A stretch of 25,875 nucleotides of DNA from a virus. The stretch's first letter is position 1. The number at the start of each line of letters is the position of its first letter. This document shows positions 815 through 22,800 of this stretch, piece by piece. The stretch is from IMG/VR virus record IMGVR_UViG_3300025012_000268, positions 1 through 25,875 of that record; one strand, written 5' to 3'. A model generated the notes under the pieces. The model was not told the origin of the DNA and made no database searches. It was given only the letters and a program-made list of their open reading frames with translations. Both the position numbers and the translations under genes were made by a program.

Positions 815-1889
815 ATTTGCGCGTGTCGATACAACTATATATTCGGATCATCCCACACAGAATTGTGGTCGTGACGAAATTCTAGAAATTATTAAGACTT
901 TTTCTTCGGCAAGTTATAGTTCAGCTATAGTGTCAACTATTAACTCGCGTGCGCTAGTTCAGTTTGATCTAACTGATATTTCTCAATCCATTGTTGACGG
1001 TACAATTGCTAATCCTAGATTTTATTTAAATATGTATATTTGTACTGCAAAAAATCAAGAACAAACTACTAATCTTTACATATACCCAATTTCATCAAGT
1101 TGGGTACAAGGTGTTGGTAAAAGATTTGACTATCCTATTAGAACTGCAGGTGCGAGCTGGACAGCTAGTGATGGTGATGTTCCAACTTATTGGGATGCAA
1201 CTGGTTCAGATTATATTTTGGCTGATATTGTAACAACTTCTTTGTGGTCTAACGAAAATACATTTCAATCGTCTGGTCATTATACATATGAATTAGCAGA
1301 TTTAAGGGCTGATGTTACAAGTATAGTAAATAATTGGTTTAATGAGTCTTATGTAAACAATGGATTTTTAATTAAGAGATCAGATTCAGAAGAAACTAAT
1401 ACTAAAGACTATGGTTATTTACAATTTTATTCTATAGATACTAATACAATATATAATCCTAAATTAGAAGTAGCATGGGATGATTCTTCATTTATAACTG
1501 GAAGTTTAACTTCTTCTAATATGACCGATATGTACATATATGCGAAGAACATGGACAGTGAATATAATAACGGAGAAAAAGTACAAATAAGACTTGGTGT
1601 TAGAAAAAAATATCCAAGGAGATCATATTCAATTAATAATGCATATGAAATGTTGCAATATTTACCATCATCTTCTTATTATTCGATTGTAGATGCTCAA
1701 TCATTACACACTCTAATACCATTTGATACAGGGAGCACTAAAATCTCTTGTGATTCCAGTGGAAGTTTTTTCAATATCTGGATGAATTCGTTTCATCCCT
1801 CTAGATACTATAATATAAGGATTGAGGTTGTATCAGGATCATTGAAGAATATTTATGAACTTCCTGTTTCATTTAAGGTTGTAAGATAA
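801..1889 (+). CDS. Phage virion (tail/fibre-like) protein with DNRLRE-like domain
   Basis: 362 residues from ATG 801. The first two thirds read like a DNRLRE-type beta-sandwich: SRALVQFDLTDIS, then YLNMYICTA, LYIYPISSSWVQGVG, DVTSIVNNW, NNGFLIKRSDSEE, YLQFYSIDT and NPKLEVAWDD in order. These proteins are structural rather than enzymatic. The last third (from SSFITGSLTSSNMTD) is a second beta-rich module ending in IEVVSGSLKNIYELPVSFKVVR. I recognise this style from large environmental myophage tail proteins, but not the exact gene. The coding sequence for the last ~23 residues has a diverged copy at the end of the next gene (2628-2693). The gene is sandwiched between two homing endonuclease genes. 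The virion role is inference from domain style and neighbours. Confidence 0.7.
   Translation: MHYLKFARVDTTIYSDHPTQNCGRDEILEIIKTFSSASYSSAIVSTINSRALVQFDLTDISQSIVDGTIANPRFYLNMYICTAKNQEQTTNLYIYPISSSWVQGVGKRFDYPIRTAGASWTASDGDVPTYWDATGSDYILADIVTTSLWSNENTFQSSGHYTYELADLRADVTSIVNNWFNESYVNNGFLIKRSDSEETNTKDYGYLQFYSIDTNTIYNPKLEVAWDDSSFITGSLTSSNMTDMYIYAKNMDSEYNNGEKVQIRLGVRKKYPRRSYSINNAYEMLQYLPSSSYYSIVDAQSLHTLIPFDTGSTKISCDSSGSFFNIWMNSFHPSRYYNIRIEVVSGSLKNIYELPVSFKVVR
1821..1889 (+). repeat. 3'-end segment of the virion gene, copy A of a diverged duplication
   Basis: Encodes IEVVSGSLKNIYELPVSFKVVR plus the stop. Copy B at 2628-2693 encodes IKVISGSLENIFELPTEFLVT plus a stop, in frame at the end of the GIY-YIG gene. 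SGSL, NI and ELP are identical and most other positions conservative, while the DNA has diverged substantially, so this is not a recent local duplication. Confidence 0.75.
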
Positions 1890-1892
1890 TAA

Positions 1893-2693
1893 ATGATATA
1901 TTATACATATGAGTTAGTTGATCCAAGAACTAATTTAATATTCTATGTTGGAAAAGGCAAAAATAATAGAATGCATCAGCATTTTAAAAAAGTAAAAAAT
2001 AATAAAACTTTAATTAATAAACACTTAGAAAATAAATTAAAACAATTAATAGACGAAAAATTAGAACCAATATATAATAAAACTTTTGAATCAGAAAATG
2101 AACAAGAATGTTTTCAAAAAGAAATTAGTAGAATTAAAGAAATAGGAATTGACAACTTGTGTAATATGACACATGGTGGTGAAGGTGGATTATTATCAAT
2201 AGAAGCAATACATAAATTATCTATATCTAAGATGTGTCCAAGATTTAATTATATATTAGAATGTTTAAAATGTAAAAATAAGTATACACTATGTTTAACA
2301 TTAAATGAATTTAATAGAGGCTGGTATAAGAAACATTGTTCTAAAAAATGTGCATATAGTAGAATAAAGAGCGCATTAGAAAAATTAAAAATTTCCAACA
2401 TAATGATAGTGCGGGGCACTTCTAAAGGAAAAAATAATTCAAGATATGGAAAAAATTTATATAACACATGGGTTGAAAAATATGGGAAAATAGAAGCAGA
2501 TAATAAAATGAAAATATATAAAGAAAAACAAAGAAATTCTCTCACCAATAGAAAATTTTCTAATCAGACTATTAAAAAAATGTCAGATGCTGCAAAAACT
2601 AGGTGGAAAAATTTTAATAAACAGAAGATTAAGGTAATTTCTGGATCCTTAGAAAATATTTTTGAATTACCAACAGAATTTTTAGTCACATGA
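1893..2693 (+). CDS. GIY-YIG homing endonuclease carrying a fused virion-gene tail
   Basis: 266 residues. The N-terminus (about 3-30: YYTYELVDP, FYVGKGKNNRMHQH) is the GIY-YIG nuclease core, variant form, with Gly20, Lys21 and Arg26 in the expected places and an acidic helix near CFQKEISRI that could supply the catalytic Glu. A four-Cys zinc finger follows (Cys124, Cys127, Cys149, Cys153). Next comes an NTWVEKYGKIEAD module shared with the endonuclease at the window start. It ends in about 22 residues homologous to the C-terminus of the preceding virion protein, an odd addition to a nuclease and best read as the displaced end of that gene. It starts 3 bases after the virion stop with no SD, so translation probably depends on reinitiation. 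Family role: site-specific cleavage that drives lateral copying. Confidence 0.82.
   Translation: MIYYTYELVDPRTNLIFYVGKGKNNRMHQHFKKVKNNKTLINKHLENKLKQLIDEKLEPIYNKTFESENEQECFQKEISRIKEIGIDNLCNMTHGGEGGLLSIEAIHKLSISKMCPRFNYILECLKCKNKYTLCLTLNEFNRGWYKKHCSKKCAYSRIKSALEKLKISNIMIVRGTSKGKNNSRYGKNLYNTWVEKYGKIEADNKMKIYKEKQRNSLTNRKFSNQTIKKMSDAAKTRWKNFNKQKIKVISGSLENIFELPTEFLVT
2628..2693 (+). repeat. Displaced 3'-end segment of the virion gene, copy B
   Basis: In frame at the end of the GIY-YIG gene. Encodes IKVISGSLENIFELPTEFLVT and a stop, homologous to the end of the 801-1889 product. Together with copy A it brackets the endonuclease gene, as expected if an element carrying its own version of the gene's 3' end inserted near codon 341 of the virion gene. 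Confidence 0.7.
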
Positions 2694-2702
2694 AGATAAA
2701 AA

Positions 2703-4658
2703 ATGGCAGAAATAAATAGTCAAATATATAACACAATAGAAGGTGAATTAGTAACTAGTCGTTCTGATGATGGTAGTATACTGTCAATTTCGAGTTCAAC
2801 TATTAAGGCAACCGATGAACACCAATTTGTAGAATTAGATTCTATGCTGTTTTATTATTCATCACCCTATTTAGATGATATAATGGATACAGAATTTAAA
2901 GAGTTGGTACCACCTCAAGATTTGATAGATGCTCAGCAATCTATAATACCTCCTGGTATGATATTGATTAGTCAGTCAGATTGGTTAGCAACAGAATCGT
3001 TAGTACTAAATTTACATGAAGACTTAATAGTATCTAAAAGCTACTTTGACAATGAAATTTATATATTAAAGGCAGAAAATACTTCATTGGATTCAATAGT
3101 AAAATATGTTGACCAAGCAGCAAGTACTATACTAGATAAACAGATTGTTAAATATTCAGACCCATTTAGTAAACACTTTCCCAATAATCTTTCACCAGAA
3201 AATGAGAAATCATTTAATGAATTTTGGGTAGTACTAAATGCAACAAGAGCAGTGTTTGATATTCCATTTTCAAGTATAATTGAAAGTAGGGTACCTATTG
3301 CAAGTAGAACATCTTCATACGTTGATTATACATATGAGGTAGTAGCATCTATGTCGGCTCAAAATGGAATTAAACCCTATGTTTCTAAAATTATTACACA
3401 TGAAACAGATGTCAATTATAAAACTGCTTATAGTGATAAATATTTATTTGATTCATTTTATTATGGTGCATATATATTTGAAAATCCAGATACTGTAACA
3501 GCATTATTAGGAGAAAGGCAATATTTGTTAAACGTAACAAAATCTTTAAGAGAAGAAATTACACGATTACATGTTATATTATCAGGGGGGGGCGGAGGTG
3601 AAGGTATTACTGTAATTCCATCTATAGTGACAATAAACGAAAATCAAGAAATAAATTGTACATTAAAGTATGGAGCTTTACCATATAGAATAGATAATGC
3701 ACCTGAATCAGAAATTGCAATTGCATCTATAAATGGTGAAACGCTTGTGATAAAAGGTATTAAAGAAGGAAATACCCATTTATTAATCAAAGATGCAACA
3801 GTTAAAAATTTTGCAACAGTTGGAATAATAGTTAGTAACAAAGAGGTCTATTTTGATGAAAATCAATTTGCTAAAATGAGTTTAACATTTGTAGATTATT
3901 CTGGAAAATTTGATGTTTCTGATTTAGGTGTTACCATAAGTCATGTTACATTTCCTTCTGGTAAATATACATGGACACATAAACCAATTTGGACTCCAGA
4001 ACAAGCAGAATGGAAATACATACAAGAAGCGAAAATTCCTCCTGGATATATTAAGATAGATTTTAGTAAAAATATAGATCCTAATGATGTTGAAGAAATC
4101 TGGTATAATGAAAATGGTCCAACATTTCCATATGAAGATCGTAAATATGTTGATGTAAAACTAATTAATAATCTTAATGTTGCGAATATAGATGAAAAGA
4201 TATTATATTTTGGACCACCTGGAAATGTTAGCTCAAATAAACAAATAAATATAACATTTAGACACTATGTAGAAAATATTAATACAGGTAATCTTATACT
4301 TATTCTAAAGCAAGACATAAACTCATCTTGGTGGTGGAGATATGATGATGTGACTATTACTGTTAGATCTAGATTGCATCCTGAGAAATTTAATAAACAA
4401 ATTAGACCACCTTTATATAGTCAAAGTGATAGGTCTAATGAGATTCAATTCACTGAGGTACCTCCAGGACTTATAGATATTATATTTAGTGAAGAATTAA
4501 AACCTATTAATGTGACAAAACTTGAATGGTATCAGGATTTATTTTACTATCAACCAATTGATTTACCAATTCCAATTATACCATTCACTACTTTAACAGT
4601 GGAACACTTAACAAATGCAGATTCACAATTAAGCATATCGTTTAAAGGAGATTATTAA
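2703..4658 (+). CDS. Phage virion protein with Gly linker and Ig-like (BIg2-like) domain
   Basis: 651 residues, unrecognised as a specific gene. The N-terminal part (1-293) is mixed and ends in a helical stretch (ERQYLLNVTKSLREEITRLHVIL). A Ser-Gly5 linker (294-299) is encoded partly by a run of eight G bases. Next comes a domain resembling bacterial Ig-like domains: ITVIPSIVTINENQE, ALPYRIDNAP, GETLVIKGIKEGNTHLLIKDA (about 302-370). The remainder is beta-rich, with two related IPPGYIKIDFSK / VPPGLIDIIFSEE motifs that suggest a repeated module. Ig-like domains on phage virions usually mediate weak surface binding, so an exposed tail or decoration role is inferred. The start at ATG 2703 has only a weak SD (GAAG). 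Four bases separate it from the next gene, suggesting co-expression. Confidence 0.65.
   Translation: MAEINSQIYNTIEGELVTSRSDDGSILSISSSTIKATDEHQFVELDSMLFYYSSPYLDDIMDTEFKELVPPQDLIDAQQSIIPPGMILISQSDWLATESLVLNLHEDLIVSKSYFDNEIYILKAENTSLDSIVKYVDQAASTILDKQIVKYSDPFSKHFPNNLSPENEKSFNEFWVVLNATRAVFDIPFSSIIESRVPIASRTSSYVDYTYEVVASMSAQNGIKPYVSKIITHETDVNYKTAYSDKYLFDSFYYGAYIFENPDTVTALLGERQYLLNVTKSLREEITRLHVILSGGGGGEGITVIPSIVTINENQEINCTLKYGALPYRIDNAPESEIAIASINGETLVIKGIKEGNTHLLIKDATVKNFATVGIIVSNKEVYFDENQFAKMSLTFVDYSGKFDVSDLGVTISHVTFPSGKYTWTHKPIWTPEQAEWKYIQEAKIPPGYIKIDFSKNIDPNDVEEIWYNENGPTFPYEDRKYVDVKLINNLNVANIDEKILYFGPPGNVSSNKQINITFRHYVENINTGNLILILKQDINSSWWWRYDDVTITVRSRLHPEKFNKQIRPPLYSQSDRSNEIQFTEVPPGLIDIIFSEELKPINVTKLEWYQDLFYYQPIDLPIPIIPFTTLTVEHLTNADSQLSISFKGDY
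3585..3592 (+). repeat. G8 homopolymer in a virion gene
   Basis: Eight consecutive G bases, then CGGAGG, in an otherwise AT-rich gene. It encodes the Gly linker just before the Ig-like domain. Slippage would frameshift the gene after residue ~296. Confidence 0.9.
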
Positions 4659-4662
4659 TAAA

Positions 4663-6255
4663 ATGCCTATAAACAACAATTTAAATAGAGATGTTAAAGT
4701 AGTTGATAAGAGATTAGAAAAACTTGAAAAGACTGGCGAAGGATATTTCTCACCAGGATATATTCAGGATATAGGGCTAGATGTTTATTTAGAATTATTT
4801 GTATATAATGTAGCTACTAATGAGTTAATTAACTATAATAAATTAAATTTTGAATCCGAATTAAATAAGAGTATATTTGTAACAAATGATTCTTTATTAA
4901 TTAACCCTGGAATGCATTTACGGGTATTAGGATATTCATCTGGTGTATATAAGATAAAATATGAATTTTATAGGAAATTAATAGGTAACGAAATAGTTGA
5001 TGATGTAGCTAATAAATTACTTATTAAACAAATTTCCCCATCTAGAAATGAAATAGAATATTTAATACCACTTTCTTATTCTAATGATGTTAATACTGTT
5101 ATTGCAGGGATAAAAAAATTAAAAACATATGTGAATTTTGGAGAAGGTAACTCCAACTTAATCATTAATTCTAAATTATTAGAAAATAGACATTTTTTTA
5201 AATTTTATGAATATTTGAGTAGTACATTAGATATTAATAATACATTTTGGATAGTAGAAAAATTATTAGATACATATGAAGATAAAGTTACCTTGTATAC
5301 AGAGATACCTGAGTATGAAGGAGAACTAAAAAAACTTCTAGGTCCAAAAATAGATTATAAATTACTAAATGTTACGCAGAGAACAACAAACTTAGAAAAT
5401 TTTGATTCATTAACAGCACCATCAGGTTCAATAACAGATAAAGATGTAATTAGAACATTCTTAAGTGGTAGTATAGTTGAAGGAATGGAATTAAATACCG
5501 ACTTTAGGGCATTTAGTAATTTTATTCATTTTAGCTCAGCAACGCAGAGGTTACAAAATTTTAAATATAAAGTCGGTCAAATTGAATTTTATGATTCTAA
5601 AATATTTACATTAACATCAGGAACAATTGGAAGTGCAAGTACAGGAACACCTGAAATATCTGCTAGTAAGATATATTACGATAATAAGAAATTTGAAACT
5701 TTAAATTCATTTGATTCTTATGAAAAATATATGTATTTTGAGAGTCATTCGGCTGAAAGCGGCTCAGAAGGAATATTTTCTGCTGCTACATGGCCCAAGT
5801 ATAATTCTGCTGGTTCAGGTTCATTTTTATTATATTCATATTCTTCTAGTGCAGCAATAGATTGGTATAATTCTCAGATATATAGTGCAAGTGTATATGA
5901 TAATGAAAACCCAAATAAGTTAACGAATTTTGTTCCATTGGAAATACAGTTAGATGTACAAAATGACAACTTTGTTAAATTTATTGATATGATTGCTCAA
6001 ATTTTTGATATCAACTATATTTATATTAATAGTATAACTTCTAAAAATCAGACTGAACATCATGTATACAAAGGTATACCAAAAGAAATAATAAACATTC
6101 AAGTTGCTAGTAAGAATTTTGATATAAGAAGTACAGTATCAACTAAATTTTTAGCCAATATAATGGGAACTTCTAATTTAGATACAGAATATTATTTGTT
6201 AACAGAAAATGATTTAGTGTTATTAACAGAAGATGGTATACCACTAATATTATAA
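4663..6255 (+). CDS. N-terminal part of a large phage virion protein (split gene)
   Basis: 530 residues, with AAAGGAG at 4644-4650 upstream. The N-terminus is charged (DKRLEKLEKTGEGYFSPGYIQDIGLDVYLELFVYN). The middle contains GSITDKDVIRTFLSGSIVEGMELNTDF and a SASKIYYDNKKFE / HSAESGSEG region. The end contains FVKFIDMIAQIFDINYIYINSIT and GIPKEII. In the large-myophage virion proteins I recall, this last stretch is followed in the same polypeptide by the 'WKRILNNLPYLLKTKGT' segment, which here begins a separate ORF at 11731. The last ~25 residues (TEYYLLTENDLVLLTEDGIPLIL) have a repetitive 'LLTE' pattern and may not be original. I read this as the front half of a gene interrupted by a ~5.5 kb insert. 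The split is inferred from family memory, not alignment. Confidence 0.68.
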   Translation: MPINNNLNRDVKVVDKRLEKLEKTGEGYFSPGYIQDIGLDVYLELFVYNVATNELINYNKLNFESELNKSIFVTNDSLLINPGMHLRVLGYSSGVYKIKYEFYRKLIGNEIVDDVANKLLIKQISPSRNEIEYLIPLSYSNDVNTVIAGIKKLKTYVNFGEGNSNLIINSKLLENRHFFKFYEYLSSTLDINNTFWIVEKLLDTYEDKVTLYTEIPEYEGELKKLLGPKIDYKLLNVTQRTTNLENFDSLTAPSGSITDKDVIRTFLSGSIVEGMELNTDFRAFSNFIHFSSATQRLQNFKYKVGQIEFYDSKIFTLTSGTIGSASTGTPEISASKIYYDNKKFETLNSFDSYEKYMYFESHSAESGSEGIFSAATWPKYNSAGSGSFLLYSYSSSAAIDWYNSQIYSASVYDNENPNKLTNFVPLEIQLDVQNDNFVKFIDMIAQIFDINYIYINSITSKNQTEHHVYKGIPKEIINIQVASKNFDIRSTVSTKFLANIMGTSNLDTEYYLLTENDLVLLTEDGIPLIL

Positions 6256-6407: not shown

Positions 6408-7535
6408 ATGAAAAAATTTAAATACATATTATTTTTTACAATTTTACTTTCAACCATGATTATAGGTCAGGTAAAAATATCCGAATTGCCTACACTAAAT
6501 TCACCTGATAGTACAGATTATACTATAATGGTAAGTGGCGGAATCACTAAGAAAATTGCACTTCATGTTCTTGTAAATAGTGCCGTTGCTCAAACAATGA
6601 TATTTGATTATAATACTAGTGATCTTGCTAGAACAAAAACTTTAATAAATGACTCACTTATTCTTGAGCGCGCAGCAAGGAGTGCTGCTGACTTGTTGAA
6701 AATTAGTATTGCTGATAGTGCCATATACTTCTATAAACGTGCTTACATTGATGCTGTTGCTAATGGAAAATTGTCCATAGCTGATAGTGCTACTTATTTT
6801 TATAAAAGAGCCTATCTTGATGCTGCCTTAGCTGCTAAACAAGCAAGCTTAACTTTTGGAATTGCAAATACAAATAAAGTCCAAATTAACGCTGCTGATG
6901 TAGCTGAAGATGATTATGCAAAGTTCACGGCAACGGGATTATTAGGCAGAAGTTATGCAGAAGTATTAAGTGACATAGGTGCAGCGGCTTTGGCACAGAC
7001 GATGTACATTGGAACTACTGCACATGCTATTAATCGGGCTTCGGCTGCGGAAGGGTTAATGGGCATTACAAGTCTAACTCCAGGGGCAGATTTCACTTTA
7101 TCACAAAACTCTGTAAATGTTTTCACTTCAGAAAATTCTGGGGCAATAGTTAATACGCTTTATCTAAAGGCGGGCAATGTCGGCATCAGTACTGTTTTAC
7201 CCTCGGCTAAATTAGATGTTGCTGGTTCTTTAGAATTTGAGACAGTACAATCACCGATAAGAAGTTTAACTTCTCTTAACATAGCTTGGGATTCAGCTTC
7301 AATATTTAGAGATACTATTGCGGTTAATTCTGAATATACATTTTCAAGTGAAGCAGATGCACAATGGATAACGGTTGAGATATTCAGTAACGGAAGTTAC
7401 ACGGCCACTTTTAGTGATGCTGCAATAGTATGGCAAGGTGGAGTAGCACCAACACAAACAGCAGATAAAACGGATATATATCAGTTCTTCAGGTCAGGTT
7501 CAAGAATATTTGGAATGGTAATGCAGAATTTTTAA
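6408..7535 (+). CDS. Tail-fibre-like protein with N-terminal signal peptide
   Basis: 375 residues. It begins with a typical signal peptide (MKKFKYILFFTILLSTMIIG, then Q). Next is KISELPTLNSPDSTDYTIMVSGGITKK, a phage or prophage fibre opening ('...ELP..T...D.T..I.VSGG.TKK'). Residues 98-143 are two tandem 23-residue repeats built on SIADSAxYFYKRAYxDA. Later segments (GNVGISTVLPSAKLDVAGSLEF, then a C-terminal domain ending FRSGSRIFGMVMQNF) match the head-fibre/tail-fibre style seen in phages and prophages of Bacteroidota-like hosts. A secretion signal on a virion fibre is unusual, so it may instead be a secreted host-surface protein. It shares a base with the next start (TAATG). Composition differs from the virion genes on both sides, suggesting transfer. 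Family call moderate, role uncertain. Confidence 0.6.
   Translation: MKKFKYILFFTILLSTMIIGQVKISELPTLNSPDSTDYTIMVSGGITKKIALHVLVNSAVAQTMIFDYNTSDLARTKTLINDSLILERAARSAADLLKISIADSAIYFYKRAYIDAVANGKLSIADSATYFYKRAYLDAALAAKQASLTFGIANTNKVQINAADVAEDDYAKFTATGLLGRSYAEVLSDIGAAALAQTMYIGTTAHAINRASAAEGLMGITSLTPGADFTLSQNSVNVFTSENSGAIVNTLYLKAGNVGISTVLPSAKLDVAGSLEFETVQSPIRSLTSLNIAWDSASIFRDTIAVNSEYTFSSEADAQWITVEIFSNGSYTATFSDAAIVWQGGVAPTQTADKTDIYQFFRSGSRIFGMVMQNF
6699..6836 (+). repeat. Two tandem 69-bp coding repeats in the fibre gene
   Basis: 6699-6767 and 6768-6836 each encode 23 residues sharing the pattern SIADSAxYFYKRAYxDA. The period and Ala/Tyr/Asp content suit a trimeric fibre shaft. The DNA copies have diverged, so this is not a recent slippage event. 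Confidence 0.8.
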
Positions 7536-10500
7536 TGAAAATAATCTTAATAATATTACTCAGTTCGGTTAGTGTATTAGCACAACTCAAACCTTTTATT
7601 TTTGGGGTTGGTTCGAGTATAAACGATACCACAACGAATATTTATGTTGTTACTTCCTTAGCAAATGATAACGGAGATGGACTGACTTATGAAACAGCTA
7701 AAAAATATTTACCTTCGGCTTTAAGTTTAGTTGATGCACCAACAGATACGGTTTTTATTGTTGGAAATTTACCAGACTCCACTTATACCAATACAAAAAA
7801 TTGTGTTATTACTGCTTATAACTTATCAAACCCGCCCTTATTGTATGGCGGTGATACTGTGGATTATTCACACAGTTATGCTTGGCAGCAAATTAATACT
7901 GTCTCCTCAGACACTAATGTTAATTACTTTAGTAGTACAAGTACAACGGTAACTTCGGCTGCTGCTGATAGGATATGGACATGGAGAGTGTACGTTGCTA
8001 ATCCAGGTAAGCTTTGGGCTTATATGGTTTATCATGGTATTAATTCGGATGCAGACGTAGTGAAACTTTGTTTGAATACCAGAACAAACAGCGATATTAC
8101 TATGATAACTGATAGCTGCCAAGTTATAGATACAACTGCCGCTAATACTTGGAATGTGTCTCGTTATTGGGGTGAAGGTAAGTATTTAAGTGATACTGTT
8201 TGGTTTTCTATTGTTGCTAATAGTACAATTAGCGTACCAATAGGAACGTCAACAGGAGAGACAGAAACAACGAGGGGATATAAGGATAGTGGGGTAGATG
8301 GATATGAAAATTTTCCAGCAGCAAGTTATTCAACCTTAACATTTGATAAACAAACCGATATAGCAGTTGGGATAATTACAAAAACTGAAACTGGTGGACT
8401 TGATTCAAATAAATACTATGCAATATTCCCAGATACAACGTATCAAGTATTTTTAAGTGGAATATTGGGTACAGAGGTTTCGGATGCTTCATTAGTCGAT
8501 ACTTTGAAAGAATGGCATTATAAAAACGATACTCTTTATGTTAATAGATACACCGATACTTCAGCAGTTGAAGCAACAACACGAGATGGTTTTTTAGTTA
8601 CAAGTCAATCCACTATAAGCGGATTTAAAATTGAAAAAACAAGATATGGAATAACCGCAACTGGAACGATCGATTCATTAACATTATCAAGAAATGAATT
8701 TACAAATAATATACAAGCTATTTTAGATTCATCAGCTGGCGATGCTTTATATGCTAATAATTTATTTGATAATAACACTAGAGATATAAAATTAGTTAGC
8801 AAAGATTCTGCTTATGTTAGGAATAATAGTTTTTATAGTGCAGGTGATACAAGTTTACTTTCAATTAACACAAAATTATTCTATGAAAATAATTTAAGCT
8901 ATACCGAAGCATATCCAAGGAAAGCATGGATTATTGATGACTTAGCAAATGTTAAAGCGTTAAATTTTAATGCCTATGCTTCTTCAAGCTTGTCTCTGGG
9001 CAGAATAGGCGCTGTCGAATATGATAGCTTACCTACCATAGTTTCAAATACTGATTTTGAGGATAATTCATTCCAGGTTAAAACTTGGAAAGCAGAACCA
9101 TATAACAGTTTCACAAAAGTTTGGACAAATATGTTTGCCGGGGATTTTAGTTTACGTTTAGACAGCTTAATCACAAGTCCAGCAATAGATGCCGGAACTA
9201 ATTTGGGATTAGAAACTGATATTATCGGCAATCCAATACCAGATGCTTTAACTGATTTGGCAGATATGGGGGCTTATGAAAAGGTATTATCTGATGAGCC
9301 GCCAGCATCGCCTTTTAATGTTTTAGCTTCAATGGTTGGAGATTCTGCTTATATCACGTATGAATACGATTTTGAGAATGATTTAGATTCTGCAAGAATA
9401 CACATAGGAAGTACATGGATTGCTTCGGTTGGAATAGGTTCTTTTTATTATCATCATCCTACAAGAAGTTCAACGAGTTCGATCCCAGGATTAACCGCAT
9501 TAAATGTTGTTGGAGTAAATGATGATTCGGCAACAGTAAGTTTTAGGATTAAGACAAATAATGACACGACTTCTTATCGTATTCGGTATGGGATAGGAAG
9601 TTTGTCAGATTCAACTGTATCAGCAGACACTTTTATTTTTATACCGCAAGCGACAACCTATGGGGTAAGGTTGCTTGATACTGCTGGGCAAACAAGTGGA
9701 TTAGTTACATCTGCTTTAACTTGGATTGATAGCACAAGGATTTATGTTACTTTAATTGGGCTTACTGCTTCGTCAGGTTATATGTGGGATGTAACTGCTT
9801 TGAATGATAATGGATGGGTGAATAGTTCCGATGGTTCATTCACGACAACAAGCGGAGCAACTTTAACTGCTGATTTTTATGTTAGCCCATGGGGTGGCGG
9901 TGATACGCTTACTTACTCACAGATAGTTGATTTAACTTTTGCTGGCGGAGATACAATTTTATTTTTGAAAGGATATACTTATAAAGGTGCGTGGACTATC
10001 AGAAGGACTGCTGGCATAGATACTGTTTATATTGATTCTTATGGTATTGGATTAAAACCAATTTTAACTTTGAAAGATTCTGTAAACGGTGCTATGGATG
10101 GAAGCAACTGGTCAGCAGTAAGTGGACTAACTAATGTTTGGCGAATGACTTTATTATCAGACAGAGTTATTGACCGACTTTGGTTAAGTGGTTCAGAGGT
10201 TAAATTAGCTGGGTGGTATAAGTTTGAGCCTACGGTATGGATGGAGTATTTACAAAGGGGTGATAATGGAGATGGTACTTATGGTGTTTGTCCCGAACAT
10301 CCATTCCATCATTATAAAGGGACTGGTTACTATCTTCACGTTTATGCTGCTTCTAATCCAGCGACTGTTTATAGTTCTTTTGAAATTCCAGCACCAGTAA
10401 TAAGCGGAGCTTTAGTAAGAGAAACTATTTTAATAAAAGATGCAGATTATATTACTATTAATGGATTAGATATTCAAGGGGGAGGTTATGCTTCGCTGGG

Positions 10501-11599
10501 ATTGGCAGGTGCTGATTATATTACAATTACTAACTGTAACATAGGTAAAAATAGTAATTATGCAGCCATAGCTGGTGATAGATTGAGCGGAACAGATAAG
10601 AAATCAAATTATGTAACTGTTTCAAATGATACAATTGACAGCCATTGGGACTATGATTATGTATTCTATACTCAAAGGACACCTTATGGGATGTATATTG
10701 ATAACTCTAGTTATTGGGATATTCACGACAACTATATCAAAGATTGGTGGATGGGTATTTATATAATAGGTACGACTGGACTTACACAGTATCACAATTT
10801 TTATAATAATGAAGTAACCTCATCAGTGAGTTTATCGAAAGGCATGCAGATTGGTGGAGCCGCCCAATATGGACAATATTATACCAATGTGTATAACAAC
10901 TATTTCCATAACTTAAAAGTGGGCGTACAAATGTCCTCTTCAATCGGTAATAAGGTTTACTATAATATCTTTGAAAATTTAGTTCCATCAACAAACTCTC
11001 ATTCAACTGGGTCAAACTCTGGATGGGGCGTAAGCATGGGTGAGGAATATCCAGAGTTAACCTCAGATAGTAATACTGTATTCAATAATACGTTTTACGA
11101 TTTCACAAATCAGGTTTGTATGTTTCCAGGAGAATGGGCTAAATTTTCCAATAATCTTATGTTATATACTAATCAACGCTATCCAAGTGGGGGTGTAACA
11201 AGAGCCACTGCCAATAGGAACCAGACATATAAAAATAATTTGTTCTTTTATCCGAGCAGGGGTTCATCAGATGATATGATAACACTTCAATTAGGCAGCA
11301 TACCAGGAACATATACAACAAGTGAATTTAATGCTTTGAATGGACAAGAAGAACTTACAATTTCCGATAACTTACAGCATGTTGGAGTGATTGAGGATTT
11401 AATAAATACAAGCAACTTTACTTTACCAACTGGTAGTCCAGCTTTGAATGCAAGTGATACTACATCCGTTCTAAGATTAATACTTGATGCAGTAGCAGAC
11501 GAGAATGGAGACTTTTTTGATAGACAAAATAATTTAATTCTTGATAACCATGACTGGTATAATTTTGAGAAGCCTCACATTGGTGCAATTAAAAATTGA
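7535..11599 (+). CDS. Large secreted-type parallel beta-helix protein, possible receptor-binding or depolymerase-like fibre
   Basis: 1354 residues. A signal peptide (MKIILIILLSSVSVLA, then Q) precedes a first beta-helix unit: IYVVTSLANDNGDGLTYETA at the start, NNxF/NNLF-type turns at about 385-460, and AIDAGTN...DMGAYEK at about 550-583, a common end of Bacteroidota polysaccharide-lyase-like helices. A fibronectin-III-like region follows (about 590-770). A second beta-helix opens with DFYVSPWGGGDTL (about 775), contains ADYITINGLDIQGGGY, NNYFHNLKVGVQMSSSIGNKVYYNIFENL and NTVFNNTFYDF, and ends FEKPHIGAIKN. So it is two helices around an Fn3 spacer. Known helices of this kind bind or cut glycans, but I see no diagnostic catalytic residues. 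No T9SS-type C-terminal sorting domain is apparent. It is coupled to the upstream gene (TAATG) and followed by an overlapping truncated gene. Probably transferred from a bacterial or unrelated phage/prophage source. Confidence 0.62.
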   Translation: MKIILIILLSSVSVLAQLKPFIFGVGSSINDTTTNIYVVTSLANDNGDGLTYETAKKYLPSALSLVDAPTDTVFIVGNLPDSTYTNTKNCVITAYNLSNPPLLYGGDTVDYSHSYAWQQINTVSSDTNVNYFSSTSTTVTSAAADRIWTWRVYVANPGKLWAYMVYHGINSDADVVKLCLNTRTNSDITMITDSCQVIDTTAANTWNVSRYWGEGKYLSDTVWFSIVANSTISVPIGTSTGETETTRGYKDSGVDGYENFPAASYSTLTFDKQTDIAVGIITKTETGGLDSNKYYAIFPDTTYQVFLSGILGTEVSDASLVDTLKEWHYKNDTLYVNRYTDTSAVEATTRDGFLVTSQSTISGFKIEKTRYGITATGTIDSLTLSRNEFTNNIQAILDSSAGDALYANNLFDNNTRDIKLVSKDSAYVRNNSFYSAGDTSLLSINTKLFYENNLSYTEAYPRKAWIIDDLANVKALNFNAYASSSLSLGRIGAVEYDSLPTIVSNTDFEDNSFQVKTWKAEPYNSFTKVWTNMFAGDFSLRLDSLITSPAIDAGTNLGLETDIIGNPIPDALTDLADMGAYEKVLSDEPPASPFNVLASMVGDSAYITYEYDFENDLDSARIHIGSTWIASVGIGSFYYHHPTRSSTSSIPGLTALNVVGVNDDSATVSFRIKTNNDTTSYRIRYGIGSLSDSTVSADTFIFIPQATTYGVRLLDTAGQTSGLVTSALTWIDSTRIYVTLIGLTASSGYMWDVTALNDNGWVNSSDGSFTTTSGATLTADFYVSPWGGGDTLTYSQIVDLTFAGGDTILFLKGYTYKGAWTIRRTAGIDTVYIDSYGIGLKPILTLKDSVNGAMDGSNWSAVSGLTNVWRMTLLSDRVIDRLWLSGSEVKLAGWYKFEPTVWMEYLQRGDNGDGTYGVCPEHPFHHYKGTGYYLHVYAASNPATVYSSFEIPAPVISGALVRETILIKDADYITINGLDIQGGGYASLGLAGADYITITNCNIGKNSNYAAIAGDRLSGTDKKSNYVTVSNDTIDSHWDYDYVFYTQRTPYGMYIDNSSYWDIHDNYIKDWWMGIYIIGTTGLTQYHNFYNNEVTSSVSLSKGMQIGGAAQYGQYYTNVYNNYFHNLKVGVQMSSSIGNKVYYNIFENLVPSTNSHSTGSNSGWGVSMGEEYPELTSDSNTVFNNTFYDFTNQVCMFPGEWAKFSNNLMLYTNQRYPSGGVTRATANRNQTYKNNLFFYPSRGSSDDMITLQLGSIPGTYTTSEFNALNGQEELTISDNLQHVGVIEDLINTSNFTLPTGSPALNASDTTSVLRLILDAVADENGDFFDRQNNLILDNHDWYNFEKPHIGAIKN

Positions 11600-11730: not shown

Positions 11731-13845
11731 ATGTCTTATAGAGATGATTATATAACATTAAGAGATGCAACATTAGAAATATGGAAAAGAATTTTAAACA
11801 ATCTACCATATTTGTACAAAACGAAGGGTACTATTCGTGGTCTTAGAGCAATGGTTACTTGTTATGGTATACCATCTACTCTTTTATATGTTAGAGAATT
11901 TGGAGGCCCAGATGTAAGTTCATCTATATGGAATGAATATAGATTTGATAATTATTCTTATGCATTAGATTTTATTCCAACTGCAAGTATGATGGGTGTA
12001 TGGACAGGAAGTAATTCAATTTATAATAGGGTACCAAGTTGCATTGAATTTAGATTTATAACAACAGGCAGTGCATATACAAAAAATGCTACAATGTCTT
12101 TATTTGAATTAGATAAAATTACTAATGGGGCAGGTACACTTAATAGTTTATTCGGAATACATACAATATATACAAATGAAGACACAGGTCACCTACAATT
12201 TGTAATTCCAAACAGCAATGATACTAGTAGTTTATTTGTTGCTTCTACAAGTGAATTTCCAATTTATGATAATAATCCCATTCACGTTGTTTTTCAGAAA
12301 GATACTGCATCTGATGGGGATATATCAAATGAATATCATCTATATGCAAATAAATATTTATATGGTTCTATCCTATATGCAGTATCTGCATCACTAATAG
12401 TATCAGCTAGCCAGAACTTATATTTTTCATCTCATTCATATGTAAACGTTGGTGGAGTGGTAAGTGGTACTGATGTAGTTAATAGATTTTCAAATGTAAA
12501 AGCATTCTACGGTTCTATAGATGAATTTAGATTATGGGATACAGCTCTAGCAAGAACAACAATAAATACTCACACCAGATATCCTCAGTCATTTATAGGT
12601 GACACTATTACAGCCTCCTATAATGATTTATTGTTAAAATATTCGTTTAATAATCCATTAGATGTTGGTGATAATACTATGGTGAGTATTGGTTTACCAA
12701 ATGAAGCACCATCTAATGGGTACGAGTTTCAAACTACATTTAGTCAATTTCCCAATATAACAGTATTTCCTTACCAATATAGCTTATATGAATATGAATC
12801 TGAAGCACATAGTATAAATTTAGGAAGCTCACGACAATCTTCTAATAAAGTTAGAATAGAAAATGGTACGCTTTTAGGACCACTTTCACCTACTGATAAG
12901 ATGGAAATAGGTCAATATGATTTATCACAAATTGATTCAAATAGACTGGGAATATATTTTACTCCTTCAGATCCAGTAAACGAAGATATGATTAAAACGT
13001 TAGCAATATCTGATCCGGGAGACTTAATAGGTAACCCAATAGATTTATATAATGATACATATTCAGAATTAGACAAGTTAAAAAATATCTATTGGCACAA
13101 TAGTTCAAGGAAAATTGGTGTAAATGATTATTTGAGATATATTAAATATTATGATCCAACATTGTTTGACCACCTAAGGTTAATGGTACCCGCAAGATGT
13201 CATATTAATTTTGGTATTGTCTATGAACAAACTTTGTTAGAAAGAGCGAAGACAAAATATATAAAACCTATAATTACTCCCCATCACTATGAACAATCAA
13301 TTGATATGCCAGAACATTATAGGAATATTACAAGTAGTTATATATCAACTGATGTATACTATGATATAAATTCCATTGTAACAATGAGTAACTCTGGATA
13401 TGATAATTTACCTGAGTTAATTTATTATATGAATGATGTTATGTACATAGTTAGTTCTAGTTATGCTAATTATAATTTACCTATGACTATAGAATTAACA
13501 GATTATTACAATGGTTTATCAGGAAGTATTGTAAACATTATAGGTCCAATTGTAGACTTTGATCATAATATTACCTATGAACATAAAGTTAAAATACCTC
13601 TGTCTCAGTCTTATATACCAACTAGTGGATATATTGGTTCTGCTACATGGATAGGATATCATCCTTCTCATTATAAATATTTTAATTGTTTCGGTACCTG
13701 GGAAAAGAGATTAAAGTGGATGGGTTGTTCTAATAATGAATCAATGACTACTGATAGGTTACCTGCAATTCAGACCTGGATCACAGATAAGAGGGTATTA
13801 AAATCAAAAGATGATGGAAAATCAAAATTGCAGATCATTAATTAA
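11731..13845 (+). CDS. C-terminal part of the large phage virion protein (split gene), LamG-like domain
   Basis: 704 residues. It opens with DYITLRDATLEIWKRILNNLPYLYKTKGTIRGLRAM, then CYGIPSTLLYVREFGGPD, signatures I know from the interior of large-myophage virion proteins rather than from an N-terminus. Next comes a LamG/concanavalin-like region: SCIEFRFITTGSAY, LQFVIPNSND, VHVVFQK-type strand, FYGSIDEFRLWDTAL (about 100-275). The end includes NRLGIYFTPSDPVNEDMIKTL, LRYIKYYDPTLFDHLRLMVPARC and a C-terminal beta module. No SD precedes ATG 11731; the upstream bases are pure A/T, unlike most neighbouring virion genes. Taken with the 4663-6255 ORF, it is best read as the back half of one gene. 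Either both halves are made separately, or the gene is broken. Confidence 0.72.
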   Translation: MSYRDDYITLRDATLEIWKRILNNLPYLYKTKGTIRGLRAMVTCYGIPSTLLYVREFGGPDVSSSIWNEYRFDNYSYALDFIPTASMMGVWTGSNSIYNRVPSCIEFRFITTGSAYTKNATMSLFELDKITNGAGTLNSLFGIHTIYTNEDTGHLQFVIPNSNDTSSLFVASTSEFPIYDNNPIHVVFQKDTASDGDISNEYHLYANKYLYGSILYAVSASLIVSASQNLYFSSHSYVNVGGVVSGTDVVNRFSNVKAFYGSIDEFRLWDTALARTTINTHTRYPQSFIGDTITASYNDLLLKYSFNNPLDVGDNTMVSIGLPNEAPSNGYEFQTTFSQFPNITVFPYQYSLYEYESEAHSINLGSSRQSSNKVRIENGTLLGPLSPTDKMEIGQYDLSQIDSNRLGIYFTPSDPVNEDMIKTLAISDPGDLIGNPIDLYNDTYSELDKLKNIYWHNSSRKIGVNDYLRYIKYYDPTLFDHLRLMVPARCHINFGIVYEQTLLERAKTKYIKPIITPHHYEQSIDMPEHYRNITSSYISTDVYYDINSIVTMSNSGYDNLPELIYYMNDVMYIVSSSYANYNLPMTIELTDYYNGLSGSIVNIIGPIVDFDHNITYEHKVKIPLSQSYIPTSGYIGSATWIGYHPSHYKYFNCFGTWEKRLKWMGCSNNESMTTDRLPAIQTWITDKRVLKSKDDGKSKLQIIN

Positions 13846-15362: not shown

Positions 15363-16406
15363 ATGGCAGATGACGTAATTCAAACAACAATGGCTAGACC
15401 TGTATCTGTATTTACACCGTTTAATTTAGACGATGACATTGTAACAGAGGTACCAAGTAGAGTAACATATGGACTTTGGTCAGATGGTAGTGGAATTTTA
15501 ACGGGAATGTCTACATCTTCTGTAGCTGATGCTTCTATAAAGAAGTATTATCACGATGTATATGGATCAGGGGCAACAGGAAGTGCAGCAGTTGAATTTT
15601 CTATTGCATACGGACACGTATCAGGAAGTGGTTCTGATGTATCAGATAGGGACAATTCTACACAGGCAATTTATGGTCAATATAGATCTTTATTACTTGC
15701 AAATCCAAATGGCTCATTTATAACAATTGATGGTACTAAAACTTTAACTGATTTTATTGCAATAAATATTAAAAGATCTAATTTAAAACAAAAATTAGAT
15801 GCAGGAAACTGGCAACTTAATCTAACTAGTACAGTATCGGGAACTCACTATTTAATTGACAATAGCGGAGGCGCAGAAGATACTAATATAAGTACAGTCG
15901 GTAATGTATTAGCAGTTGTTAGTGGAACAGTTGTAGGTGGAGAAGTTGCAGCTGGAGCATTGGCTAATAAAGAATACGGATTATGTTATCCAGAATATGG
16001 AATTATATTACTAGATCCTCGGAGAATCTCAGAGTCTTTGTGTCCATTTGATTATAATACCGCAAGTGATGCATATTATGATAATCATGGTAAACTCTTT
16101 GGTAAAATGTCAGGTTCAGCAGCTGTTTGTTATTTTGAAGCTCGTAGTGAAGAAATAATAAGTTCAACTCATTATTTTGTCAGACTGAAAAATAAACAAT
16201 ACAACTATACTACTAACCCAACATTTTATTCTGCATCAGATGGTACTATAATATATTCAGAATTTTATGATAATCCAGAGGTATATGTAACAAGTATAGG
16301 ATTATATAATAATAGTAATGAATTGGTTGCAGTTGCAAAGACAAGTCAACCTATTAAGAAGTCGTTTTCACTTGAATCCCTATTTTCCGTCCGGCTCGAT
16401 TTTTGA
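15363..16406 (+). CDS. Phage virion protein, paralogue of the 17571 gene
   Basis: 347 residues, with SD AGGAG at 15352-15356. The N-terminus (RPVSVFTPFNLDDDIVTEVPSRVTYGLWSDGSGILTG) precedes DASIKKYYHDVYG and a region with IYGQYRSLLLANPNGSF and FIAINIKRSNLKQKLDAGNWQLNL. The C-terminus (VYVTSIGLYNNSNELVAVAKTSQPIKKSFSLESLFSVRLDF) is the hallmark end of this virion family. The 17571 product ends in a clearly homologous way (AIGLYNDHNELVMVGKLGAPFKRDYDLDTTFIIRLDV). The two are tandem paralogues now separated by an endonuclease gene. Exact place in the virion unknown; tail or neck is a guess from context. Confidence 0.7.
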   Translation: MADDVIQTTMARPVSVFTPFNLDDDIVTEVPSRVTYGLWSDGSGILTGMSTSSVADASIKKYYHDVYGSGATGSAAVEFSIAYGHVSGSGSDVSDRDNSTQAIYGQYRSLLLANPNGSFITIDGTKTLTDFIAINIKRSNLKQKLDAGNWQLNLTSTVSGTHYLIDNSGGAEDTNISTVGNVLAVVSGTVVGGEVAAGALANKEYGLCYPEYGIILLDPRRISESLCPFDYNTASDAYYDNHGKLFGKMSGSAAVCYFEARSEEIISSTHYFVRLKNKQYNYTTNPTFYSASDGTIIYSEFYDNPEVYVTSIGLYNNSNELVAVAKTSQPIKKSFSLESLFSVRLDF

Positions 16407-16484: not shown

Positions 16485-17495
16485 ATGAGCAAAGAAATAC
16501 TATGCAGAATATGTAATAAAATTTTTAAAGTAAGTTCTATGGCATCCCATCTAAGAGTTCATAACATTAAATACGAAGAATATGCAGAAAAAAATTTAGA
16601 TCAATTTCCACAACTTAAAAATAAAACATGTATAAAATGTGGATCTAAAACAACAAATAACAAATTATGTAAACTATGTTACAAAGATTCTGATAAACAA
16701 GTTAAATGTAAACACTGTAATAGACAAATTAAGATTAAAGGGTTGGCTCATCACTTAAAAACAACGCATCACATTTTATTCGATGATTATGTACAAAATA
16801 GTATAGAACAATTTCCCAACTGGCATCCCTGTTTAATCTGTGGAAAATTAACTCCAAACAAAACAACCTGCTCTGGAAAATGTGAAGGAGAACACAAAAA
16901 AATTATTTATAAAGGTAGGGGACTTTTTAGTTTAATTTCAGAAGAACAAAAAATAATAGTTGGAAAAAAAATAGGTGAATCTCAGAGAAAAAGATTTTCT
17001 ATACCAGGAAACAGTGATTATTTAAAGGGTGATAATAATCCAGCTCACAGACCAGGGGTTGGAAAGAAAATATCGGAAACCCGTTTAGCTCGTGGCTGTG
17101 GAGTAGGTAGTAAAAATCCAATGTATGGTAAAACTCATACCCCAGAGGCAATTAAGAAAATATTCTCGTACCGAAAAATGAATAAAACTGAGAAAATAGT
17201 AGCTGATTTGTTAGATCAACAAAAAATTCCATATGAATTCCAATTCTTTATCACTGATAATAGTATCTGCAAATCATATGACTTTAAGCTTAAGGACAGA
17301 CCTGTAATTATAGAGGTTGATGGAGATTTTTGGCACGGTGGTCCAGGTTCAAAAACATATTGGAAAGACGTTGATAAGGTAAAACTAAATGATGTATTAA
17401 AAGAATCCATTGCTAAAACTAAAGGTTATAAGTTGTTAAGGTTCTGGGAAAGTGATTTAAAAAAAGATGTAAATATTATTCTTCAATATTTATAA
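16485..17495 (+). CDS. Vsr-like (EDxHD) homing endonuclease with duplicated zinc-finger units
   Basis: 336 residues. The N-terminal 133 residues form two tandem units of the same plan: CxxC, HxxxH or HHxxxxH, a Y...QFP segment, CxxC, then CxxC/CxxxC. Unit 1 uses Cys7/10, His22/26, Cys49/52, Cys62/65. Unit 2 uses Cys75/78, His89/90/95, Cys116/119, Cys129/133. Basic NUMOD3-like linkers follow (GVGKKISETRLARGCGVGSKNPMYGKTHTPEAIKK). The C-terminal nuclease domain is NKTEKIVADLLDQQKIPYEFQF, SYDFKLKDRPVIIEVDGDFWHGG (Glu277, Asp279, His284), a downstream Asp and GYKLLRFWESDL, as in Vsr-like nucleases. It is inserted between two paralogous virion genes, and its SD is sequestered in a hairpin. Confidence 0.85.
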   Translation: MSKEILCRICNKIFKVSSMASHLRVHNIKYEEYAEKNLDQFPQLKNKTCIKCGSKTTNNKLCKLCYKDSDKQVKCKHCNRQIKIKGLAHHLKTTHHILFDDYVQNSIEQFPNWHPCLICGKLTPNKTTCSGKCEGEHKKIIYKGRGLFSLISEEQKIIVGKKIGESQRKRFSIPGNSDYLKGDNNPAHRPGVGKKISETRLARGCGVGSKNPMYGKTHTPEAIKKIFSYRKMNKTEKIVADLLDQQKIPYEFQFFITDNSICKSYDFKLKDRPVIIEVDGDFWHGGPGSKTYWKDVDKVKLNDVLKESIAKTKGYKLLRFWESDLKKDVNIILQYL

Positions 17496-17570: not shown

Positions 17571-18404
17571 ATGTCCGACGGATTTGTGTTTAAAGGTTTA
17601 GATTCTACAGATTTATCTTTAAAAATATTTAAGGTATTTAAAAATTGGAGTTGTGATGAATCTAATTATGATACTTTTGGTATATCTCTACAAATTGGAA
17701 TCTCAGGAAGTAAACGATTTTATCCAGAAACAGATGTACAAAACTCTGATGGTAGTTATCAGAAATTAGTCTGGAAATCTATTAAATATTTATACTATCC
17801 AAGTTCGAGTGTACATCTTCGCACAAATCCATTGGATATAACCCAAAATTATATAGACATGGATAAGATTCATTTAGTTAGTAGAAGTTTAGAAGATAGT
17901 ATATGTGTTGTAAATATTCCACATAGGGTATTTGGAGAAAGAATCAAACCAACGTCAGTATATTTATCAGATGAGAATCTAGGGTATGTATATATTGATG
18001 ACGGTAATTATAATTTATATATTAGTGGTACTGATAATCCTAGAGTATTGGTAGGGAATGTGTTTTATGAAAGTGGTCATATAGTTATTTCAACATCATC
18101 TTATTATGAATTAGCAACACATAATTTTGAATTATATTTTCAAGGTACCCAGACAATAACAGAATATGAAATTATATGCACTGCCCTAGAATCAGAATTT
18201 AATAATACACTAAATCCAAGTGCTCAGGAACCAGGTACAAATAAATATATACCACTGTTTTCATCATCTGAAATTCCACCACTTGTTACAGCTATAGGAT
18301 TATATAATGATCACAATGAGTTGGTAATGGTTGGTAAATTAGGAGCTCCATTTAAGCGTGACTATGATCTTGATACAACGTTTATTATTCGGCTAGACGT
18401 GTAG
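17571..18404 (+). CDS. Phage virion protein, paralogue of the 15363 gene
   Basis: 277 residues, with SD AGGAAA at 17561-17566. It opens FVFKGLDSTDLSLKIFKVFKNWSCDESNYDTFGISLQIGISG. It continues with SIKYLYYPSSSVHLRTNPLDI, NIPHRVFGERIKPTSVYLSDENLGYVYIDDGNYNLYISG and VGNVFYESGHIVIS. It ends AIGLYNDHNELVMVGKLGAPFKRDYDLDTTFIIRLDV, homologous to the end of the 15363 product. It is about 70 residues shorter than that paralogue, mainly through loss of the central segment. Likely arose by tandem duplication, with the endonuclease invading between the copies. Function in the virion not determined. Confidence 0.68.
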   Translation: MSDGFVFKGLDSTDLSLKIFKVFKNWSCDESNYDTFGISLQIGISGSKRFYPETDVQNSDGSYQKLVWKSIKYLYYPSSSVHLRTNPLDITQNYIDMDKIHLVSRSLEDSICVVNIPHRVFGERIKPTSVYLSDENLGYVYIDDGNYNLYISGTDNPRVLVGNVFYESGHIVISTSSYYELATHNFELYFQGTQTITEYEIICTALESEFNNTLNPSAQEPGTNKYIPLFSSSEIPPLVTAIGLYNDHNELVMVGKLGAPFKRDYDLDTTFIIRLDV

Positions 18405-19899: not shown

Positions 19900-22800
19900 A
19901 TGGAAATAAAAAAACTCACCACTAAAATTACCTCAGTAGATCAAATTGTACATATTGCGGATATCCATATAAGGCCTTATAAGCGACATGTTGAATTTAA
20001 ACAAGTGTTTGAAAATTTATATAAATCGATCAATTCAATAAAAACAGAAAATACCATTATTGCTATTTTAGGAGATCTATTTCATGCTAAAACAGAAATG
20101 ACTCCAGAGCTTATTTCTATTGTATCAAATCTATTAATAAATCTTTCTAATATATGTCCTTTGATAATAATACCAGGAAACCACGATTGTTTTACAGGAG
20201 ACCATGAAATTTTAACTAGAACTGGTTGGGTATCTTTAAAAGAATATATAGATTTAAATAAAAACGAAGAAGTAACAACATTTAATTTATCTACAAATGA
20301 ATTAAGCTTTGAAATGCCAACTGCGAAAATAAAAAGACGTCACAATGGTAAACTTCTACATTATAATGGAAAGGATGCGGAATTTATATGTACTCCAACA
20401 CATAGAATATTATATAAACAAGGAAATAATATTATTGGTGAAAAAATATATGAAAAAGAAGCTAAATTTTTAATAAACAGAAAAATTAATATTCCATTAA
20501 ATGGTATAATTAATAATGATAATTATATACAAAATAAATTTGCAAGATTAGCTGGATTTTCTTTTGCTGAGGGTACATTTGTTAAAAAATATTTTAATAA
20601 AAATAAAAGATTAGTGGGCAGAATACAATTTCATTTAAAAAAAGATAGAGAAATAAATTACATATGTAATATAATGTCTCAATATGGAATAAAAATAGAT
20701 ATAAATAAATACATTAAAAAAGATGGCGCTTGGACATATTCTATAAGTGGGCAACTAGCAACTGATATTTTTAAATTTTTTAATACTGATAAAGATTTGA
20801 TTAAATTTACGTGTTTAAATAAGAATATACCATGGACAATTTTAAATGAAGATATAAATTCTTTGAAATCTTTTATGGATGGATATTTACATGGAGATGG
20901 TTGTAAGAATAAGAATTTTTGGTCGTTTTGTTCTATGAATAAACAGAGTATAGAAATTCTATCGACAATTTCTAGATTTATTGGAGCTCGTTCTAGAACA
21001 TATTTTAAAAAAATATTTTATGGAAAATATGAAAATTCTAAAAGATTATACGGGGGATCATGTACAATAAATAATTTAATTAATAGTACACATTGTAATT
21101 TTTCAAATGAAATAGATTATAATGATTATGTATATTGTTTAACAACTCCAAATTCAACTCTTTTAATAAGATATAAAGATAAAATATTTATTTCTGGCAA
21201 TTGCAATTTAAATAATCCAAATAGATTAGATTCTATAAGTCCGATTGTAAATAATTTAAATAGAAAAAATATTTTTTATTTGAAGCAAGGTGGGGTTTAT
21301 GAGTTAGCAGATATATATTTTTGTCACCTATCTATCTTTGATGTGCCTAAAAATTATATAAGAGCAGTTGATGTTCCAAATGATAAAAGAAAAATTGCAT
21401 TATTTCATGGAATTGTTGATAAATCAACAAACGAATTTGGTTATAATCTAAGAAATGAACTCGTAGACAAGACTATTTTTTCTGGATATAATATTACTCT
21501 TTTAGGAGACATTCACAAACCCCAATCCTTATCAGAAAAAATAGTTTATCCGGGAAGTTTGGTGCAAAATAATTATGGCGAGGGATTAACTCATGGGTAT
21601 GTATTGTGGACTCTTAAAAATGAATCTAATAAATTCATTACTATAGAAAATGAATATGGTTATTACACCTTAGAAATTAAAAATGGAGTTGTTCCGGATG
21701 CAACTGATGTTCCAAAAAAGTGTAGAATGAGAGTTCATGCATATGATATGGCAGTTGCAGAATTGAATGATGCATTGGGTATCATAAAGAAAAAATATAA
21801 TCCTATTGAAATTACTATAAATAGAATATCATCAACAAAATATAATATTTCTACAGAAGATAGAGTTAAATTGAATATTCTAAATATTCAAGATATATCG
21901 TACCAAAATGATTTAATAGAAACATACATTTTACAAAATAATACCATCGATCAAAAAGGTTTAGATACTATAAGAGAAATTAATACAAATTTAAATAGTA
22001 GTATTAATACAGGCGACTTTGTTAAAAATGTTAGATGGTCACCTTTAAAGTTCGAGTGGTCAAATATGTTTTCCTATGGAGAAAATAATATAATTGATTT
22101 TACAAATCTAAGGGGTATAGTGGGCTTATTTGGAGTAAATGTAGTTGGAAAAACATCCGCAGTTGACAGTTTGTCATTTTGTTTATTTGATAAGACTAGT
22201 AGAGATTTTAAACCTATAAACATTATTAATAATAAATCAAACTACCTTGATTGCAAAATAAAATTTTTATTATCTAATACTGAATATTCAATACATAGAC
22301 ATGTATATAAAAATAAAAAAGGTGATCCTATGTATAAAGTAGAATTTTCATATATAGATGATGCCAAAGAAGTACAATCGCTTAATGGAGAAAATAGGTG
22401 GGATACCAATAAAAACATATATTCAAGAATAGGTACCTTTGAAGATTTTATTTTAACTGCATTTAGTATGCAGGGTAAAAATGCGAATTTTTTAGAAAAA
22501 GGACATTCAGAAAGAAAAGATTTATTAATTCAATTTATGGGGTTAAGCTTATTTGATAGTCTATATGAGATGGCATCTAATAAATATAAGGATAAAATGT
22601 CTTCTCTAAAGACACTACAACACGAAAACTGGGCAGATAAACTAATTAAATCAGAAAGAAAATTGACAGATTTAGAAACTATATATTCGGAAAAAATTTT
22701 AAATAAACAAAATATATCAAATACTATTAAGTCAATTGAAACAAATATAAATGAGTTAAGAGAACAATTGGTAGATATAGATGAAGATTTGGATATAAAT

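Follow-up and report, generated by a model that had tools for sequence, protein, structure and literature searches.

Here, we describe a virion gene whose 3′ end is duplicated around a gene for a GIY-YIG endonuclease, such that one copy terminates the virion gene and the other terminates the endonuclease open reading frame (ORF). The locus lies in the virus record IMGVR_UViG_3300025012_000268 of IMG/VR, positions 1–25,875 of which (25,875 nucleotides) comprise the window that was analyzed. The arrangement was probably produced by the insertion of a unit consisting of a homologous replacement 3′ end and the GIY-YIG gene at about codon 341 of the virion gene, within the last beta-hairpin of its product.

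All features of the locus are encoded on the plus strand. The virion gene, hereafter gene A, occupies positions 801–1889 (ATG at 801, stop at 1889), and its working 3′ end, tail A (1821–1889 including the stop), corresponds to codons 341–362 of the ORF that begins with the ATG at 801. The entire GIY-YIG ORF (1893–2693; 801 nt, 266 amino acids) starts 3 nt past the gene A stop with its own start codon and comprises the endonuclease proper (1893–2627), with a catalytic domain at about residues 1–100 followed by a helical, DNA-binding-like part, and tail B (2628–2693 including the stop), which is in frame and makes up residues 246–266. The C-terminal sequence of the gene A product is IEVVSGSLKNIYELPVSFKVVR, and that of the GIY-YIG ORF is IKVISGSLENIFELPTEFLVT. 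Based on the boundaries of the duplication and on uninterrupted relatives, the putative mobile unit (replacement tail plus endonuclease) would span positions 1821–2627, flanked by codon 340 of gene A on the left and by the displaced tail B on the right. The next virion gene (2703–4658) has a homolog located directly after gene A in the closest relative. Upstream, and separate from the duplication, a NUMOD3-type endonuclease ORF (275–814) has its stop within the first codons of gene A. NUMOD3-type ORFs at L001:1790–2284 and L001:4148–5014, in the near-identical contig IMGVR_UViG_3300025030_000418 (L001), similarly overlap the first few codons of the next virion gene, within which they terminate; the window and L001 have the gene A flank in common and diverge upstream of position 560, inside the NUMOD3-type ORF.

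Tails A and B are identical at 13 of 21 residues and similar at 18 of 21, and the match between them was the top BLASTP hit when the whole gene A and GIY-YIG proteins were compared (E = 5e-6, single comparison), in agreement with the claim of the earlier note that the endonuclease carries a second copy of the virion gene's 3′ end. When the C-termini of same-strand neighboring ORFs were compared, this pair scored 70; among the listed matches scoring at least 48 from 7,805 other neighboring ORF pairs, none combined a host gene with an endonuclease, all being paralogs, repetitive or antisense frames, or lower-scoring. At the nucleotide level, 39 of 63 positions are identical (13, 16, and 10 of 21 at codon positions 1, 2, and 3, respectively), and because identity is lowest at the third position, the tails are homologous coding sequences and not a simple repeat. 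The arrangement in L001, which is 99.7% identical across the stretch, is the same, so that an assembly error confined to the window contig is unlikely. A degenerate DNA pattern for GSLxNI[FY]ELP found one contig among 2.9 million in IMG/VR, the near-identical one, with both copies matched. The duplication of the virion gene's 3′ end around the endonuclease is confirmed. The idea that the duplication reaches on into the ribosome-binding leader of the following ATG was rejected, given that the 9/13 identity there is attained by 6 of the 618 ATGs in the window and is not significant.

About 140 relatives of gene A were gathered. In annotated relatives, including the immuto phage, the gene A homolog lies directly downstream of the baseplate wedge gene, and by this synteny gene A most likely encodes a baseplate-region virion protein. 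The protein has a CBM-like N-terminal part and an Ig-like C-terminal domain; a Foldseek search with the fold yielded partial matches only, to carbohydrate-binding modules and Ig-like folds. The AlphaFold2 model (pLDDT 79, pTM 0.80) ends in strands at residues 335–345 and 348–361 (pLDDT about 88–91), and the duplicated segment is predicted to form most of the last beta-hairpin of the Ig-like domain. Members of the family end in a conserved FKVVR-like motif, which tail A retains as FKVVR, and the family profile scores the gene A C-terminus at 127.8 bits without a tail, 143.5 bits with tail A, and 140.5 bits with tail B.

The closest relative of gene A apart from that in L001, encoded in contig 3300023210_000804 (L277; 50.7% identity over 365 columns), has a single tail and no interruption, with the C-terminal sequence IKSVSSSIEEFYDDNYKFKVVR. 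The ORF directly after it (L277:5442–6737) is homologous to the window gene that starts at 2703 (BLASTP E = 2e-5 over 69 N-terminal residues); the gene that follows gene A in Mel-JY01 is not recognizably homologous to it. Altogether, gene A is uninterrupted, with one C-terminus, in L277 and in over 100 more distant relatives, and no relatives were found between 51% identity and the near-identical L001, which shares the arrangement. Where the sequence of a relative continues past gene A, the start of the following ORF almost always falls between −7 and +11 nt from the gene A stop, the exception being L005, with the next ORF at +226, and a profile search of these relatives detected no second tail downstream of gene A, with two hits over the inclusion threshold, both of them ORFs that overlap gene A in another frame. 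The junction of gene A and the next gene is occupied in L246 by an endonuclease of a different, NUMOD3 type (L246:3599–4417), starting 3 nt after the stop and carrying no copy of the gene A tail, which suggests that this junction has been repeatedly invaded, in L246 by another type of endonuclease.

In a phylogenetic tree of 85 distinct tails, inferred from a short alignment onto which tail B was threaded along A without gaps, tails A and B are sisters (UFBoot 100), so that each is a gene A end and the two derive from a single clade. Tail B has the features of a degraded copy, with the K and R of the conserved FK..R lost and a longer branch (0.31, against 0.067 for tail A); this degradation fits the role of B as the displaced copy but does not prove the direction of transfer. 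The two tails differ at 0.72 per synonymous site and 0.28 per nonsynonymous site. A codon model with both copies constrained was preferred, by 2.4 lnL, over the alternative in which B is neutral, which is weak evidence given the 21 codons and boundary estimates, and which is the preference expected if the tails diverged in separate phages before meeting. The picture suggested by these comparisons is that of two gene A ends that were long separated while remaining functional, with B having apparently degraded since.

Under the insertion scenario, the endonuclease would have cleaved an intact gene A close to codon 341 in a mixed infection, and repair would have copied tail A and the endonuclease gene from a phage of the same clade, using homology on the left, with the right end joined to the old tail (B) of the recipient by end-joining. 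Tail B would now supply the last 21 codons and the stop of the endonuclease, and the hairpin encoded by tail A, being almost the same, would keep gene A functional, with no splicing involved at any step. The synonymous divergence of tail A might, in addition, block the enzyme from cutting the occupied allele.

The earlier note proposed that a foreign gene end was inserted together with the endonuclease, with copy A foreign and copy B native. The insertion is supported by both the duplication and the uninterrupted relatives, whereas on the origin of each copy the informative residues are split, with tail A agreeing with L277 (51% identical) at 4 and tail B at 2. Reversed roles, with tail A native and the endonuclease having either arrived already fused to a foreign tail B or gained B via out-of-register repair, are unlikely but deserve consideration: the residue matches, the canonical FKVVR ending of tail A, and its shorter branch all point in that direction, but are equally expected if A is the copy in use. 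Furthermore, the family-typical K at tail position 2 and the L277-like E at position 9 are present in B, not in A, and the reversal needs an endonuclease pre-fused to a gene A tail, hence an earlier insertion of the very kind that we favor.

A somewhat smaller probability is attached to partial duplication of the 3′ end in place, by a long target-site duplication or slippage at insertion, followed by divergence within one lineage. No donor is needed in this case, and the duplicate sits exactly at the insertion, but the GIY-YIG enzymes that have been studied leave a 2-nt overhang, not one of about 66 nt (PMC2988022). Moreover, such a history is not readily reconciled with the near saturation of synonymous sites, given that both copies have kept a conserved protein sequence, or with the apparently intact state of the endonuclease.

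Endonucleases of the GIY-YIG family often ride in group I introns, a point in favor of location within an intron or intein, with the duplicated tail as an alternative exon. This explanation is highly improbable: there are no Rfam matches in the window, and gene A has a complete C-terminus and terminates at a stop of its own ahead of the endonuclease start, so that splicing is unneeded.

The endonuclease matches the Pfam family LEM-3_GIY-YIG (1.8e-11), and in an alignment of 22 GIY-YIG sequences, Y4, Y6, Y18, G20, R26, E77, and N91 are invariant and H30 nearly so, indicating a GIY-YIG domain with its catalytic residues present. The catalytic part of the model has a pLDDT of 95+, and tail B, which no relative covers there, is predicted to be disordered (pLDDT below 50). 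The closest enzyme relative found (60% over 98 catalytic-domain residues), located in the L277 contig at another intergenic site, ends with KYNKI*, before the tail, and the tail has no counterpart in any other related GIY-YIG ORF examined, supporting the conclusion that tail B is not intrinsic to the GIY-YIG family. An origin of tail B as a domain proper to the endonuclease, the alternative raised in the earlier note, with the resemblance to tail A due to chance or convergence, would be compatible with the in-frame, C-terminal position of the tail in both proteins. It is nevertheless barely credible, in view of the absence of the tail from all the endonuclease relatives examined, the E value of the match, the sister position inside the gene A family, and the predicted disorder.

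Several other genes in the window depart from the organization seen in relatives or contain inserts. Two ORFs (4663–6255 and 11731–13845) correspond to a single virion gene of relatives (1336 amino acids in Mel-JY01, 1400 in LR756508), and the approximately 5.4 kb that splits them carries two ORFs with signal-peptide-like starts, one with a tail-fibre-like motif (6408–7535) and the other with beta-helix and fn3 regions (7535–11599). Virion paralogs with similar C-termini (15363–16406 and 17571–18404), which are adjacent in the relatives L177, L193, and L206, are separated in the window by an endonuclease with a Vsr-like part (16485–17495). Further downstream, Mre11-like phosphoesterase and Rad50-like ATPase parts (gp47-gp46 type) are combined in one ORF (19900–24072), with an intein-like insert that immediately follows the GNHD motif (CFTGDHEILTRTGW ... 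ISGN).

The prevailing view of homing endonucleases is that they gain access to conserved coding sequence chiefly under cover of an intron or intein and, failing that, occupy intergenic positions. The locus described here points to a third route in phages, so far documented in fungal mitochondria, whereby the endonuclease brings a spare gene end. We tentatively raise the possibility, for which the odds are somewhat short of even, that a class of intron-free mobile elements exists in phages, invading the coding sequence of essential genes with a synonymously diverged replacement 3′ end, which restores the protein and removes the target site, with the old end recycled as the C-terminus and stop of the endonuclease. 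Elements of this kind would then mediate the exchange of short gene ends among phage lineages, and the locus provides a straightforward way to test how a site, once occupied, gains immunity to its own enzyme.

The same arrangement was looked for at other virion genes, as the earlier note had suggested, and none was found in about 165 homing-endonuclease loci, with scans that included 79 GIY-YIG and 79 NUMOD3 loci; the strong C-terminal matches in these scans were endonuclease or virion paralogs. A first GIY-YIG alignment was too divergent to scan with. A phage precedent was not found in the literature searched, which is weak evidence as most subscription journals are missing from it. With one locus so far, this is apparently the first phage case of the fungal-type arrangement.

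Among phage systems, the free-standing endonucleases of T4-like phages are described as intergenic, in a review the text of which contains no instance of “duplicat” (PMC2988022). The T4 seg GIY-YIG genes resemble the endonuclease described here in lying between conserved phage genes, in having their own start codons, and in having presumably spread by cutting and repair. However, a free-standing enzyme of the seg type would be expected to lie between genes unfused to neighboring coding sequence, whereas here there are two copies of the host 3′ end, one of them within the endonuclease ORF, the last 21 codons of which copy the end of gene A. The NUMOD3-type endonucleases at this or nearby junctions (L246:3599–4417, L001:1790–2284, and 275–814 in the window) are likewise homing-type genes packed between the same virion genes, but they carry no copy of the end of a neighboring gene, and some merely overlap the start of the next gene.

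Outside phages, hybrids of genes with mobile ORFs have been described in fungal mitochondria, in atp6 of Allomyces macrogynus, in atp6, atp9, cox2, and nad3 of Glomus sp., in atp9 of Rhizopus oryzae, and in cox2 of Mortierella verticillata (PMC3630166). The Allomyces-type parallel drawn in the earlier note holds at the level of anatomy: in the fungal hybrids, as here, a diverged homologous new C-terminus on the host gene is followed by an endonuclease ORF and then by the displaced old C-terminus. The fungal hybrids differ in that the genes are mitochondrial, in place of a phage virion gene, and the displaced copies in Glomus share 91–98% nucleotide identity with a close relative, whereas the nearest uninterrupted relative of gene A is only 51% identical. 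In Glomus atp9, a GIY-YIG ORF is accompanied by a 51-bp inserted C-terminus and immediately followed by the 52-bp native one (PMC3630166), and with its GIY-YIG enzyme and similar tail sizes, this gene is the closest anatomical match to the phage locus.
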